This document shows positions 5,269 through 19,975 of a DNA stretch of 32,872 nt, piece by piece (the stretch's first letter is position 1; each line of letters opens with the position of its first letter). Below the pieces are notes generated by a model. The model did not search any database, was not told the DNA's origin, and saw only the letters and a list, made by a program, of their open reading frames with translations. This DNA comes from Oscillospiraceae bacterium (lineage in GTDB: Bacteria; Bacillota; Clostridia; UBA1381): the NCBI GenBank assembly GCA_022509005.1, contig JAFLUC010000025.1:1-32872 (forward strand). Direction: 5' to 3'. The translations under genes and the position numbers were made by a program.

Positions 5269-5631
5269 ATGATAAGTAGTATCGGTTTTCAAACACTGGC
5301 GATTCATGCCAGCATGATAATTACATTCGCGGCGGTCGTTGTCCGGCGACAAAAGCGCGAGCGTGAGGCGGCAGAGACCCGTGAGATGCATAAGGCGGCA
5401 TATGATGCCGAAATTGAACAAGTCGGAGAACGTGTTAAGCGTCAGATGATGGCTGCAGTGGCAGTAAACGCGCCGTTACAGATACCGTTGCAAAATAAGG
5501 CTCGACAGCGATGGATTCCCGGACGAAAGGGAATGAGCATTACCGAGGCTGAGTTTAAAATTCTATGCGGAGGTGAGAGCGGAAAAAATAAAAATGCGCC
5601 CTTATATAAGAGCGCAAACGGCATACTATGA
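5269..5631 (+). CDS. Small membrane-anchored protein, function unknown
   Basis: 120 residues. A short hydrophobic segment (about residues 8-25, ending in AAVVV) is followed at once by RRQKRERE, so a single N-terminal membrane anchor with the bulk in the cytoplasm is likely. The rest is a charged helix (about 30-62) and a basic tail. No family recognised. A ribosome binding site (AAGGAG) lies before the ATG. Its last codons overlap two palindromes (5595-5616 and 5619-5671), so its C-terminus may be shaped by DNA or RNA structure. Confidence 0.65.
   Translation: MISSIGFQTLAIHASMIITFAAVVVRRQKREREAAETREMHKAAYDAEIEQVGERVKRQMMAAVAVNAPLQIPLQNKARQRWIPGRKGMSITEAEFKILCGGESGKNKNAPLYKSANGIL
5595..5616. 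repeat. 22-bp near-perfect palindrome
   Basis: TGCGC-C-CTTATATAAG-A-GCGCA: 10 of 11 base pairs match, the exception being one C/A pair. It lies in the end of the 5269-5631 gene, two bases before a longer inverted repeat. No T-tract follows; DNA-binding site is more likely than terminator. Confidence 0.6.
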
Positions 5632-5671
5632 TATACCCAAACTAACAATTATAGTATATCATAGTATGCCG
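5619..5671. repeat. 18-bp perfect inverted repeat before the recombination genes
   Basis: Arms 5619-5636 and 5654-5671 are perfect inverted copies (GGCATACTATGATATAC in the left arm) around a 17-nt loop. The left arm carries the stop codon of the upstream gene. It would form a very stable RNA hairpin, yet lacks a T-tract, so an RNA-processing or attenuation element or a protein-binding site are both possible. Confidence 0.8.
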
Positions 5672-5694: not shown

Positions 5695-5718
5695 AAAATC
5701 GAAAACGTTTTCGAATTT
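5695..5718. promoter_or_regulatory. 24-bp palindrome, copy A
   Basis: Core TCGAAAACGTTTTCGA (5699-5714) is perfect; 11 of 12 pairs match over 24 bp. It ends directly against the GGAGGT site of the AAA ATPase gene. Two further copies lie at 14146-14169 and 19952-19975. The central CG with A/T-rich arms resembles operators of LacI-family regulators such as CcpA. Confidence 0.7.
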
Positions 5719-8640: not shown

Positions 8641-10221
8641 ATGGAATTACGACCATATCAGAATGAGGCAAAGGATGCTGTATTCAATGAATGGAGTAAC
8701 GGGCGGCAAAAAACGCTGCTCGTACTCCCGACCGGATGCGGAAAAACTATTGTTTTTGCCAAAATAACAGAGCAATGCGTAAATCAGGGCGAGCGCGTAC
8801 TTATCCTTGCGCACCGCGGGGAACTGCTTGAACAGGCATCCGATAAACTATACAAAGTAACCGGACTTAGAACGGCAATAGAAAAGGCGGAATCAACATG
8901 CATAAACAGTTGGTACCGGGTTACGGTCGGTTCAGTACAGACGCTTATGCGCGAAAAGAGACTCAATAGGTTTGATCGAGATCATTTTGACACTATAATC
9001 ATAGATGAAGCTCATCACTGCATATCTGACAGTTATCAGAAAATATTAGATTATTTTGATAATGCAAATGTGCTTGGAGTTACAGCGACCCCAGACAGAG
9101 GGGACATGAAAAATCTCGGCACGGTATTTGAAAGTCTTGCATATGAATACACATTACCTAAGGCTATTAAAGAGGGATATTTAAGCCCTATAAAGGCGCT
9201 TACAATCCCGCTGAAGCTTGATATAACAGCGGTTGCAACTCAGGCGGGAGATTACAAAGCAAACGATTTGGGGACCGCTCTGGATCCGTATTTATACCAA
9301 ATAGCGGACGAAATGGCAAAAGTATGTATGAACAGAAAAACAGTCGTATTTCTGCCACTCGTAAAGACAAGTCAAAAATTCAGGGATATACTCAATGAAA
9401 AAGGTTTTTGCGCTGCAGAAGTCAATGGCGAGAGTGCGGATAGGACGCAGGTGCTTGATGATTTTGACAATGGAACATACAATGTTCTTTGTAACTCCAT
9501 GCTTCTTACGGAAGGCTGGGACTGTCCATCAGTTGATTGTGTGGTGGTGCTGCGGCCGACAAAGGTTCGTAGTCTTTACAGTCAAATGGTAGGACGCGGA
9601 ACAAGGCTTGCACCCGGAAAAGATTACCTGTTATTACTTGATTTTTTGTGGCAAACCGAAAAGCATGAGTTGTGCCGGCCGGCATGTCTTATATGCGAAA
9701 AAGAAGAAGTCGCTCAAAAAATGACAGAGAAAATCGAGAATGCCGGAATACCAATTGACATTGAAGAAGCAGAGCAGGAAGCTGAAAACGATGTTGTTTC
9801 GCAGCGCGAGGAGGCTTTAGCGCAAGCATTACAGGCAATGAAAGCCCGCAAACGAAAGCTTGTGGATCCACTACAGTTTGAAATGTCTATACAGGCAGAG
9901 GATTTGGCAGGGTATGTTCCGGCATTCGGCTGGGAGATGATGCCGCCTTCAGACAGGCAGCTACATACGCTTGAAAAGCTCGGTATTTTCCCTGATGAAA
10001 TTGAATGTGCCGGGAAAGCTGCTAAAATCCTTGACAGGCTCGACAAACGCAGACGTGAAGGACTTACAACCCCAAAACAGATTCGTTTTTTGGAAAGCAG
10101 AGGTTTTCAGCATGTCGGCACATGGCAGTTTGAAACAGCACGGCATCTTATTGACCGTATAGCAGGAAATGGGTGGAGAATACCAAACGGAATTAATCCG
10201 GCAGAGTATATAGGAGCGTGA
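8641..10221 (+). CDS. Superfamily II DEAD/DEAH-box DNA helicase
   Basis: 526 residues. Motif I PTGCGKT at residues 30-36, Motif II DEAH at 122-125, Motif III-like VTATPDRGD, and Motif VI QMVGRGTRLAPGK in the second RecA domain. The C-terminal 150 residues form an additional charged helical domain seen in phage replicative helicases of this type. It probably unwinds at replication forks or recombination intermediates. The stop TGA lies within the leader of the next gene, three bases before its ATG. Confidence 0.93.
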   Translation: MELRPYQNEAKDAVFNEWSNGRQKTLLVLPTGCGKTIVFAKITEQCVNQGERVLILAHRGELLEQASDKLYKVTGLRTAIEKAESTCINSWYRVTVGSVQTLMREKRLNRFDRDHFDTIIIDEAHHCISDSYQKILDYFDNANVLGVTATPDRGDMKNLGTVFESLAYEYTLPKAIKEGYLSPIKALTIPLKLDITAVATQAGDYKANDLGTALDPYLYQIADEMAKVCMNRKTVVFLPLVKTSQKFRDILNEKGFCAAEVNGESADRTQVLDDFDNGTYNVLCNSMLLTEGWDCPSVDCVVVLRPTKVRSLYSQMVGRGTRLAPGKDYLLLLDFLWQTEKHELCRPACLICEKEEVAQKMTEKIENAGIPIDIEEAEQEAENDVVSQREEALAQALQAMKARKRKLVDPLQFEMSIQAEDLAGYVPAFGWEMMPPSDRQLHTLEKLGIFPDEIECAGKAAKILDRLDKRRREGLTTPKQIRFLESRGFQHVGTWQFETARHLIDRIAGNGWRIPNGINPAEYIGA

Positions 10222-10223
10222 TT

Positions 10224-12452
10224 ATGAAAAACGAAAATTTAACAGAGTTACTTGAATACATAAATCCGGCCGAATGCGATTATCAAGAATGGGTTAATAT
10301 TGGCATGGCTCTGAAGTATGAAGGATATAGCATAAGCGACTGGGAGCAGTGGAGCAGCAGGGACACAGCCCGTTATCACAAGGGCGAGTGCGCGAGTAAG
10401 TGGCAGACATTTAACGGCAGCTCATCACCGGTTACGGCCGGAACAATAGTTCAAATGGCTAAGAATGGCGGATGGCATCCTGCAAAAGAATCATACGAAC
10501 TTGATTGGGATGCTGAGATAGGCGCTAAAGAAGATTATGTATTTATTGACAAGGACTGGATTGAGCATAAAGAGTTAAATATACCTTCAGAATGGAATCC
10601 GGTACAGCAGCTCATCACATACCTTGAAACGCTGTTTGAAGCGTCAGAAAATGTGGGTTATGTAACGCAGAGCTGGGCTAAAGAGAATAAGTATTTGCCA
10701 TCTTCTGGGAACTATGACAGGACCGCAGGTCAGCTCATAGAGGAACTTAATAAATGCAATGGCGATTTAGGCGCGGTAATAGGCGATTATAAAGAAGAAG
10801 CAGGTGCATGGATACGGTTCAACCCTCTTGACGGAAAGGGCGTTAAAAACGAGAATGTGACCGAATACAGGTATGCGCTTGTCGAATCAGACAGCATGGA
10901 GATTGAGAAGCAGAATGCTATTATACGAGAACTTGAATTGCCTGTTGCGTGTTTGGTCCACAGTGGCGGCAAAAGCCTGCATGCTATTGTAAAGATAGAT
11001 GCTATGAACTATGATGAGTACCGCAAGCGCGTTGATTACTTGTATATGATATGCCAAAAAAACGGTCTTATAATAGACAGACAAAATAAAAATCCATCAC
11101 GCTTATCACGTATGCCCGGAATTATGCGGAGGGGCAGAAAACAGTATTTGCTTGATACTAATATAGGTAAAACTTCATGGGATGAGTGGAAAGAGTGGAT
11201 CGAGGGCATTAATGACGATTTGCCCGACACTGAAAGTATAGCGGATATATGGGATAACCTTCCTGAATTGTCACCGCCGCTTATAGACGGGGTTTTAAGA
11301 CAGGGACACAAAATGCTTATAGCGGGACCATCCAAAGCAGGAAAATCATATGCATTAATAGAGCTGTGCTGTGCCATTGCGGAAGGGCATAGATGGCTTG
11401 AATGGAATTGCACACAGGGCAAGGTTCTGTATGTGAATCTTGAACTTGACCGCGCAAGCTGTCTGCACAGATTTAAAGATGTATACACGGCGTTAGGATG
11501 GCAGCCTAAGAACCTTGCCAATATAGATGTATGGAATCTAAGAGGCAAGTCTATACCAATGGATAAGCTCGCTCCGAAGCTTATACGCCGCGCCAATAAG
11601 AAGAATTACATTGCAATAGTAATAGATCCTATATACAAGATTATAACCGGTGATGAAAATAGCGCTGATCAGATGGCGCACTTCTGCAATCAGTTTGATA
11701 AAGTGTGTACAGAGCTGGGATGTGCAGTTATTTACTGTCACCATCACAGTAAGGGTGCGCAGGGCGGCAAGAAGTCTATGGATAGGGCATCCGGTTCAGG
11801 TGTGTTTGCGCGCGATCCTGATGCGCTGCTTGACTTTATCGAGCTTGAAGTTACGGACGAGCTTATAAAGCAGGAGCAGAACAAGGCTGTATGTGAGCTG
11901 TGTATGAATAAACTTCGTAAATTTAATCATCAGGATGATGTATCGCAAGATGATATGTGCAGCGAAAAAGCTATGTTAAAGGCCTGTATGGACTGTTTAA
12001 GCAATGAGGAATATGAGGATATAGAGAGAGCGGCAGAAGCCGTTAGAAAGGCTGTACAGGCTCGCACAGCGTGGCGAGTAGAGGGGACACTAAGAGAGTT
12101 TCCGAAATTCAACGCTCTGAATATGTGGTTCTCATATCCGATACATAAGGTAGATCGTCATGGCGGCTTACAGGACATTCAGCCGGAGAGTGAAAAAGCA
12201 GGGTACCAAAGAGGTATAGAGGAACGCAAAAGAAACAACCAGAAAGAAAATGAGAAAAAAAGAGAGAAGTTCATTCATATTGTAGAGAGTTGCAATTATG
12301 GAGAGCCGCCGACTTTTCAGCAGGTTTATGAGGCGTTAGGATTAGCCCCAAACACAGCTCGTGATTGGATAAAACGGTATGGGTATGTCATAGAAAAAAA
12401 CACAAAAACCGTAATTAGTCAAGAGGAGTATGATAAAAAATACAGCCATTAA
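10224..12452 (+). CDS. Primase-helicase with RepA-like AAA domain
   Basis: 742 residues. The N-terminus (about 1-85, with YQEWVNIGMALKYEG) matches the PriCT-2 type domain. The middle (about 210-310) is primase-like and contains LVHSGGKSLHAIVKID, similar to the archaeo-eukaryotic primase motif. A RecA-fold domain of the RepA/AAA_25 type follows: Walker A AGPSKAGKS at about residues 367-375, IAIVIDPIYKI as Walker B and the YCHHHSKG element. The C-terminus (about 690-742) looks like a helix-turn-helix. It should prime and unwind DNA at the origin, which may be the intergenic region directly after it. AGGAG precedes the ATG at 10224; an in-frame GTG at 10218 is less likely. Confidence 0.9.
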   Translation: MKNENLTELLEYINPAECDYQEWVNIGMALKYEGYSISDWEQWSSRDTARYHKGECASKWQTFNGSSSPVTAGTIVQMAKNGGWHPAKESYELDWDAEIGAKEDYVFIDKDWIEHKELNIPSEWNPVQQLITYLETLFEASENVGYVTQSWAKENKYLPSSGNYDRTAGQLIEELNKCNGDLGAVIGDYKEEAGAWIRFNPLDGKGVKNENVTEYRYALVESDSMEIEKQNAIIRELELPVACLVHSGGKSLHAIVKIDAMNYDEYRKRVDYLYMICQKNGLIIDRQNKNPSRLSRMPGIMRRGRKQYLLDTNIGKTSWDEWKEWIEGINDDLPDTESIADIWDNLPELSPPLIDGVLRQGHKMLIAGPSKAGKSYALIELCCAIAEGHRWLEWNCTQGKVLYVNLELDRASCLHRFKDVYTALGWQPKNLANIDVWNLRGKSIPMDKLAPKLIRRANKKNYIAIVIDPIYKIITGDENSADQMAHFCNQFDKVCTELGCAVIYCHHHSKGAQGGKKSMDRASGSGVFARDPDALLDFIELEVTDELIKQEQNKAVCELCMNKLRKFNHQDDVSQDDMCSEKAMLKACMDCLSNEEYEDIERAAEAVRKAVQARTAWRVEGTLREFPKFNALNMWFSYPIHKVDRHGGLQDIQPESEKAGYQRGIEERKRNNQKENEKKREKFIHIVESCNYGEPPTFQQVYEALGLAPNTARDWIKRYGYVIEKNTKTVISQEEYDKKYSH

Positions 12453-12713
12453 AGGTATTACGACAACCTAAAAAATAAGGTCAATGTAATAGGTACGAAC
12501 ACCTAATTTTCAAGTTGCTATAAAAATCACGATGACCTGAAAATTAAGGTCGCCGGAGTTCAGCGGTAATATATATACTCTGTATATATATTTAGCCGTT
12601 CCGTATAACGTCACGTGTGTTCGGTAGATAGCCACCTACGGTGCGTGGCTATCATACCGATACACGCTTGACGATGACAAAGGAAAATTTCAGAAAAAGA
12701 AAGGAAGTAAAAA
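12453..12713. other. Putative phage replication origin (non-coding, palindrome-rich)
   Basis: 261 bp without an ORF between the primase-helicase and the next gene. Three parts can be seen. First, seven AGGT/ACCT words in alternating orientation (12453, 12466, 12478, 12491, 12501, 12535, 12547), two of them as ACCT-8 nt-AGGTC pairs. Second, an AT-rich perfect palindrome at 12568-12592 (11-bp arms of TA repeats around TCT). Third, a long hairpin with arms 12621-12635 and 12645-12660, 15 pairs with one bulged A and a 9-nt loop, extended by CGTGT/ACACG outside. Iteron-like words, a duplex-unwinding-like element and a large hairpin together suit an origin; a regulatory leader is the alternative. 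Confidence 0.55.
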
Positions 12714-12938
12714 ATGGGAAAACGAAAAAGCTATAGAGAGTTATATGGGTTCATAAGAAAAATGCCTCCGCTGTACAACACGCTGCCAAATGAACAATTT
12801 GATATTATGAAAAGTGAAGTCGCTCAGTGGTTGATAAAGCAGCCGGACGCTATTCAGATAATATTGTCTGGTGCAACAGCCAGCGGTCATATTGTTTATG
12901 ATTCACATACAGGTAAATGGAAAGGCGTAGATGTATGA
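12714..12938 (+). CDS. Small phage protein, function unknown
   Basis: 74 residues; AAAGGAAG precedes the ATG. Ends with IVYDSHTGKWKGVDV, a tail seen in small proteins of replication regions of other Firmicutes phages, none with known function. First gene after the putative origin, and its stop overlaps the RusA start (ATGA), so the two are translationally coupled. Confidence 0.75.
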   Translation: MGKRKSYRELYGFIRKMPPLYNTLPNEQFDIMKSEVAQWLIKQPDAIQIILSGATASGHIVYDSHTGKWKGVDV

Positions 12939-13330
12939 CAACTGAATTTTTCATGGCAATGGTGCCGCCGACTAAAACGCATCAGGAGAAGCAGGTCAAG
13001 GTTATAAATGGCAAGCCGGTATTTTATGAACCTCATGAATTAAAAGAGGTACGGGCAAAGTTGAAAGCGAATTTATCAAAATGGGTGCCTGAGAAAAAAT
13101 ATACTAACGCGGTGCAGCTTATTTGCAAATGGTGCTTCCCGATAACAAGGGGACACAAAAACGGCGAATATAAAATTACAAAGCCTGACACTGATAATAT
13201 GCAGAAGATGCTGAAGGATGTTATGACCGACTTGGGATTCTGGAAGGATGATGTGCTTGTAGCAAGCGAGATATGCGAAAAGTTCTGGGCGGATATACCC
13301 GGAATATACATCAAGATCATTGAATTGTGA
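12935..13330 (+). CDS. rusA: RusA-family Holliday junction resolvase
   Basis: 131 residues. The diagnostic pattern KPDTDNMQKMLKDVMTDLGFWKDD carries the metal-binding acidic residues D85, D87 and D105/D106, matching D70, D72 and D91 of E. coli RusA, and the basic K94. It would cut branched DNA arising from recombination-dependent replication or before packaging. The start at 12935 overlaps the upstream stop; the frame stays open a few codons further back without a site. Confidence 0.92.
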   Translation: MTTEFFMAMVPPTKTHQEKQVKVINGKPVFYEPHELKEVRAKLKANLSKWVPEKKYTNAVQLICKWCFPITRGHKNGEYKITKPDTDNMQKMLKDVMTDLGFWKDDVLVASEICEKFWADIPGIYIKIIEL

Positions 13331-14145: not shown

Positions 14146-14169
14146 AAAATCGTAAACGTTTGCGATTTT
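14146..14169. promoter_or_regulatory. 24-bp palindrome, copy B
   Basis: AAAATCG-T-AAACGTTT-G-CGATTTT, 11 of 12 pairs. Aligns without gaps with the copies at 5695-5718 and 19952-19975. Lies 20 bp before the start of the ArpU-like regulator gene. Confidence 0.7.
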
Positions 14170-19951: not shown

Positions 19952-19975
19952 AAAATCGAAAACGTTTTCGGTTTT
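19952..19975. promoter_or_regulatory. 24-bp palindrome, copy C
   Basis: AAAATCGAAAACGTTTTCG followed by GTTTT, 11 of 12 pairs. It is followed by TATAAT (19977-19982) with no -35 in the usual place; the palindrome occupies that place. It may mark a regulated promoter for the scaffold and capsid genes beyond the terminator at 19900-19940. Confidence 0.65.

Follow-up and report, generated by a model that had tools for sequence, protein, structure and literature searches.

A probable prophage replication origin directly downstream of a gene for a fused primase-helicase

We analysed a stretch of 32,872 nucleotides (the window), which is a whole prophage contig belonging to the 2.56 Mb genome of an Oscillospiraceae bacterium. 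The prophage carries an integrase, repressor genes, RecF-like and Sak4-like genes, a DEAD helicase, a primase-helicase, RusA, terminase, portal, and head and tail genes. The preliminary description of this DNA had pointed to a non-coding gap directly after the primase-helicase, and we confirmed that 12453-12713 is free of genes, with the primase-helicase stop at 12452 and the next ATG at 12714. The gap and its neighbours contain the following features.

10218..12452, + strand: primase-helicase, the proposed initiator, with PriCT_2, an AEP primase, a RepA-like RecA-fold helicase and a C-terminal winged helix (phrog_2597, PF08707, PF13481)
12264..12422, + strand: DNA coding for the C-terminal winged helix (about residues 683-735; predicted helices at 700-707 and 711-720, then two strands)
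12348..12377, + strand: DNA coding for the recognition helix (residues 711-720, PNTARDWIKR); residue 716 is the column that predicts a repeat base in relatives
12453..12551, unstranded: whole iteron field, with seven AGGT/ACCT half-words
12459..12471, + strand: iteron 1, TACGACAACCTAA; relatives keep the region, not the sequence
12494..12506, + strand: iteron 2, TACGAACACCTAA
12528..12540, + strand: iteron 3, CACGATGACCTGA
12568..12592, unstranded: AT palindrome, the probable unwinding element, found at the same position in many relatives as TATATATACTACGTATATATA
12610..12672, + strand: long imperfect hairpin with outer stem GTCA...TGAC, the proposed primase recognition site, with compensatory changes in relatives
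12627..12653, + strand: apical hairpin, a 9-bp stem with the 9-nt loop CTACGGTGC; the bulged A follows at 12654
12714..12938, + strand: next gene, phrog_16687, of unknown function
12917-13330: RusA resolvase, downstream of the phrog_16687 gene

As far as we could see, the combination of repeats, palindrome and hairpin is absent from the rest of the window, as had been reported before. Single elements do recur, for example an inverted repeat with arms of about 18 bp at about 5619-5671 (CGGCATACTATGATATAC ... GTATATCATAGTATGCCG), which lies just upstream of the RecF-like gene and has no T tract after it. The window also holds three copies of the dyad AAAATCGaAAACGTTTtCG, at 5695-5713, 14146-14164 and 19952-19970. 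Each copy lies some 15-90 nt ahead of a gene start (the RecF-like gene, a regulator and the gene before the major head protein gene), and the dyad looks like the operator of a LacI-type regulator.

The gap contained no DnaA boxes, and the contig as a whole held 5, with 3.5 expected. A promoter and terminator scan of the gap gave nothing beyond shuffled sequences except one weak terminator-like stem on the opposite strand at 12551-12565, and no Rfam family matched the gap above its gathering score. We found no direct DNA similarity between the gap and phages; the sequence itself is not conserved. A GC-skew profile had been proposed as a check, and it made no turn at 12.5 kb. Because the skew follows transcription and gene direction, it carried no information about an origin here.

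The primase-helicase is encoded by a 744-aa ORF that holds primase, helicase and winged helix and matches phrog_2597 at 1216 bits, with PriCT_2 at residues 9-81 and AAA_25 at residues 352-514. A model of the full protein (pLDDT 84) had RSF1010 RepA as its best structural match (Z 21.4, rmsd 3.4, 235 residues aligned), with T7 gp4 within about 1 Z of RepA and other hexameric helicases close. RepA (1g8y) was also the only significant phmmer match (E 2.4e-8), and plasmid homologues of the helicase region were mostly annotated as RepA-family helicases of small mobilizable plasmids. When the AEP domain was folded alone (pLDDT 91), it matched S-2L PrimPol at Z 14.8 and RepB' at Z 14.3 and 14.2 (with and without initiator DNA), and the next match was at 9.5; the likeness to RepB' is at the level of the fold only (Foldseek E 1.3e-4). 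In 48 relatives, the Walker A motif and the catalytic-looking residues E223, D225, H255 and D287 showed no variation or almost none. A winged helix is predicted for the last 60 residues, and Pfam HTH families matched this part in several relatives. The protein looks like an RSF1010 RepB' primase fused to a RepA helicase, with a winged helix added at the C-terminus.

We compared the locus with about 160 relatives carrying a phrog_2597 primase-helicase, made up of the best 80 viral and the best 80 bacterial loci together with two from the genome's own family; at least 300 relatives exist, and the loci are not independent samples. In most of them, well above a hundred, the gap after the primase holds, in this order, repeated words, usually an AT palindrome, and then a hairpin. 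Relatives whose primase is 60-86% identical had iterons and hairpin, and mostly the AT palindrome, in this gap. The gene that follows varies among relatives, and the element stays behind the primase. In some relatives these scans detected no clear hairpin or palindrome. Among the relatives listed, the closest primase is 85-86% identical and is encoded by a congeneric genome. One locus with an 86% identical primase, L003, shares neither words nor stem sequence with the window but is laid out alike: its stem has 9 bp, its loop has 9 nt, and one nucleotide is bulged on the 3' arm. L004 is built likewise. The preliminary description had named the absence of these structures from relatives sharing the primase as grounds for refutation, and we instead found them in most. 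It had also proposed looking for conserved words and hairpin covariation among homologues; the covariation was there, but words and hairpins differ in sequence, and it is the geometry of the layout and the pairing of the hairpin that are kept. In the isolated phages that we examined, the gap carried no origin annotation. The Streptococcus satellite phage Javan594 (L291) encodes a shorter RepA-like helicase related to the primase-helicase; behind this gene lies a gap of some 430 nt, and the phage may use a related origin.

The repeat words of the gap had been described as seven AGGT/ACCT words in alternating orientation. Such words are indeed present, but we counted eight (at 12453, 12466, 12478, 12491, 12501, 12535, 12547 and 12634), and their order is + - + + - - + - rather than strictly alternating. 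Their density in the gap is the maximum of the contig, and a count of eight was reached in 0 of 2000 shuffles. With free choice of the 4-mer, however, 47 of 500 shuffles (about 9%) held some tetramer with the same frequency, which makes the word count by itself weak evidence. A better unit is the 13-bp repeat YACGANNACCTRA, which occurs three times in direct orientation, at 12459, 12494 and 12528, with intervals of 34-35 bp; 0.04 copies are expected across the whole contig for this pattern, which was defined after the copies had been seen. The iteron field further contains two ACCT-N8-AGGT dyads (12466-12481 and 12535-12550) and a 26-nt repeat (12457-12482 and 12526-12551). In relatives generally, words occur in both orientations with spacings of about 11-12 and 26 bp, making the mirrored layout a family trait. 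Many relatives carry one word between the AT element and the hairpin, where the window has no iteron copy.

The AT palindrome proved to be perfect, as claimed, with 11-bp arms and a 3-nt centre at 12568-12592. In a scan of phage contigs (L170-L289), 33 of 120 matches to the palindrome sat behind a phrog_2597 primase, so the element is enriched near this primase but is not specific as a stand-alone marker. The sequence TATATACTACGTATATA is present in many phage contigs without this primase, and these remaining sites may be origins of other replication modules.

The hairpin at 12621-12660 was found exactly as claimed, with 9 + 6 bp and a single bulged A at 12654, and we found that it extends outward to 12610-12672 through the GTCA...TGAC stem. 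Its fold was much stronger than that of shuffled sequences (z -5.3 as DNA and -6.8 as RNA), none of 200 shuffles equalling it. We saw no second hairpin in the gap. The loop starts 66 nt past the start of the AT element, and in most relatives this distance is 61-67 nt. A GC-bearing stem of at least 8 bp (with at least 4 G/C) was present within 120 nt after the AT element in 51 of 78 loci, compared with 0.25 expected from shuffles. One subgroup of relatives (L049, L054, L060, L125 and L138) has its hairpin directly after the AT palindrome, at about 30 nt rather than 61-67, and without the long GTCA/TGAC outer stem.

A covariance model, R1, was built from six hairpins and run over 73 and 78 loci. 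In 583 kb and 632 kb of flanking sequence (1.2 Mb), all matches with E <=0.5 fell in the gap behind the primase. The window's own hairpin is divergent and escaped R1; we located it by its fold and its position. Run against 95 genomes of the order, it gave one match, in a genome that carries a close relative of the primase (G047), and missed the divergent copies in the window and in L004. From 33 distinct hairpins, the model-based alignment, which is fitted to the structure, gave 710 scored pairs, namely 659 Watson-Crick, 13 G-T, 16 A-C and 22 other. For the apical stem, 46 loop-anchored stems, which were selected for pairing, contained 2 G-T compared with 5 A-C pairs, and many of these stems differ at most positions. 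Multiple DNA alignments of the hairpins departed from the structure and were excluded from the pair counts. Unlike in RNA, there is no excess of G-U over A-C, so the structure looks to be kept in DNA. An RNA covariance model would favour G-U if anything, and thus the lack of G-U is not an artefact of that alignment.

These results bear on two other roles for the hairpin. It could act in RNA and have nothing to do with initiation, terminating or attenuating transcription of the replication operon or marking a processing site there; its position between two genes of the same direction and its very stable RNA fold would suit this. However, the stem is followed by no T tract and received no terminator call, the G-U count and the lack of a match in Rfam speak against this idea, and the hairpin follows the phrog_2597 primase and co-occurs with iterons. 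We regard a role in RNA as very improbable. Alternatively, the gap could be an origin in which the hairpin does not prime. It would instead extrude as a cruciform, or offer a platform on which the initiator ring assembles or is loaded, an idea put forward for the stem-loop of pRN1. The outer GTCA/TGAC stems and the compensatory changes also fit a duplex-encoded cruciform, and the stem-loop of pRN1 can do without its GTG primer motif (PMC4234260). On the other hand, the 3' side retains the internal asymmetry and R1 scored best on the + strand in nearly every locus, which favours a reading of the hairpin as a single strand, and the AEP domain is similar to RepB', which is a hairpin-binding primase. 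We consider the cruciform or platform unlikely. By analogy with RepB', the hairpin is probably the priming site of the primase-helicase.

The relatives also indicated how the repeat words may be recognised. Across 132 loci, word similarity correlated with identity of the C-terminal domain given the core (partial rank correlation, partial Mantel, 0.40; 0 of 300 permutations), and its correlation with core identity given the C-terminal domain was -0.01. Fifty-eight loci carry GGGAAA or GGGACA words; the x of the helix motif EKTVRxR was N, S, T or D in 46/46 loci with GGGAAA and R in 12/12 with GGGACA. When 727 alignment columns were scanned, only this recognition-helix column was fully informative (58/58), and the next-best column (0.41) was at chance level compared with the mean best value under shuffled labels (0.43). 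Mapped on a tree of the core, the trait shows 11 changes, and word and residue switched together in 10/10 independent pairs on well-supported branches (p 0.002). Loci fetched later agreed in 23/23 cases, three of them with R; the iteron classes had been read from the data before this out-of-sample check, and the helices of the later loci were assigned by alignment. Other classes were less regular: helices of the form xDTxxR went with CCGCAA in 9/10 loci of the first set and in 1/4 new loci, and xN[TSA]V went with GTCAA in 6/8. Three members make up the helix class of the window itself, NTxRDW, and TACGA words are common to them; with so few, it is the least-sampled iteron-helix pair, and the assignment of the window's own iterons is weaker.

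Since one residue close to the C-terminus of the primase-helicase matches one base of the repeats, the protein probably recognises the origin itself, and origin recognition by its winged helix is, as a reading of sequence, well supported. We also lean, with some reserve, towards a broader proposal. In a large group of phages that infect Gram-positive bacteria, a single protein would serve as initiator, helicase and primase, and its winged helix would read the iterons through a simple residue-base code. One base would depend on the x of EKTVRxR (GGGACA with R; GGGAAA with N, S, T, D or A), and xDTxxR/CCGCAA and xNTV/GTCAA would be further classes. Under such a code, changes of one residue and the matching base would repeatedly give rise to mutually exclusive replicons, and the primase hairpin would be kept by compensatory change.

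Covariation of word and helix would be expected too if the repeats were operators, through which the winged helix represses or activates downstream genes with no origin present, and winged helices are often regulators. But operators leave unexplained the AT element, the hairpin, the fixed spacing and the fusion to a primase and a helicase, and there was no excess of sigma-70-like promoters in the gap. This explanation has, in our view, very little chance of being correct. The same comparison refutes a chance clustering of short words and AT-rich palindromes. Chance might have accounted for the AGGT count, as the free-choice shuffles indicate, and for an AT palindrome, which is common in phages, but not for the fold of the hairpin, for stems in so many relatives or for the perfect correspondence between residue and base, and we dismiss it.

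Taken together, we consider it likely that the gap is the replication origin of the prophage and that its initiator is the primase-helicase encoded directly upstream. The comparison of sequences shows the architecture, the linkage to the phrog_2597 primase, the base pairing of the hairpin and the covariation of winged helix and iterons. The preliminary description had proposed the iterons, melting element and priming hairpin of a phage origin, and the relatives support this proposal; we infer the activity of the origin, the sequence of events and a priming role for the hairpin. That the AT element melts and that the hairpin primes is suggested by the layout and by analogy with RSF1010. In the proposed mechanism, the C-terminal winged helix would bind the mirrored iterons, and this binding would load the RepA-like ring at the AT palindrome, which would melt. 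The large hairpin of the + strand would then become single-stranded and fold, the AEP primase domain would recognise it and prime beside it, as RepB' does at the ssi sites of RSF1010, and a host polymerase would extend the primer. This gives a testable origin model for widespread phages of Clostridia, Bacilli and Streptococcus, in which three functions that are split over three proteins in RSF1010 would be joined in one polypeptide. Moreover, the at least 10 independent residue-base switches would amount to a natural experiment, in which an initiator and several repeats of its origin changed together while replication was kept.

Finally, we compared the gap with known systems. Phage origins behind primase genes are known from Sfi21 and phi-adh. 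Corynephage BFK20, like the prophage here, encodes an AEP replication protein, the prim-pol gp43 (cited in PMC4538821). For these three phages, the literature searched described no matching hairpin or winged-helix code, and our searches, made mostly outside the subscription literature, found no description of the origin type of the gap. The preliminary description had matched the layout of mirrored AGGT words to no origin type. The layout is not wholly unlike known origins, given its parallels with PICI, pRN1 and the oriV of RSF1010.

In PICI and SaPI elements, where pri-rep-ori sustains plasmids, the origin also lies directly 3' of the primase/initiator gene and iterons lie beside an AT-rich melting site. 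There, however, two iteron sets flank the AT region, whereas here the iterons are mainly on one side and the hairpin is on the other; a conserved priming hairpin was not found described (all from the portion of PMC6092414 used here). The RepA_N initiator of PLE resembles our case in that its DNA-binding domain covaries with the origin and the rest of the protein does not, and only cognate initiator-origin pairs replicate. PLE differs in swapping domains between two types, whereas here one residue of the recognition helix tracks one base over many independent switches (PMC8263062). The closest positional precedent is pRN1, in which a 100-nt stem-loop directly behind the gene for the replication protein ORF904 (prim-pol, SF3 helicase and winged helix) is essential. 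Both systems have an all-in-one AEP protein with a C-terminal winged helix and a large stem-loop directly downstream, but the helicase here is of the AAA_25 RecA/RepA type rather than SF3, and the clear iterons and AT palindrome of the gap are lacking in pRN1 (PMC4234260).

In RSF1010 (IncQ), RepC binds the iterons, RepA unwinds and RepB' primes at the ssi hairpins (PMC4434180, PMC4538821, PMC4234260). As there, iterons, an AT region and a primase hairpin lie close together here, and they go with a RepA-type helicase and a RepB'-like AEP primase (PMC4434180, PMC4538821). The differences are that the gap is served by one fused protein without a separate RepC rather than by three proteins, that it has one large bulged hairpin rather than two short ssi sites (ssiA and ssiB) on opposite strands, and that its iterons are short and mirrored and belong to a phage genome. 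IncQ replicons are further marked by strand displacement, with synthesis of the leading strand only. The module in the gap is a member of none of the plasmid types tested and, by analogy, would work like a fused RSF1010 initiation system.
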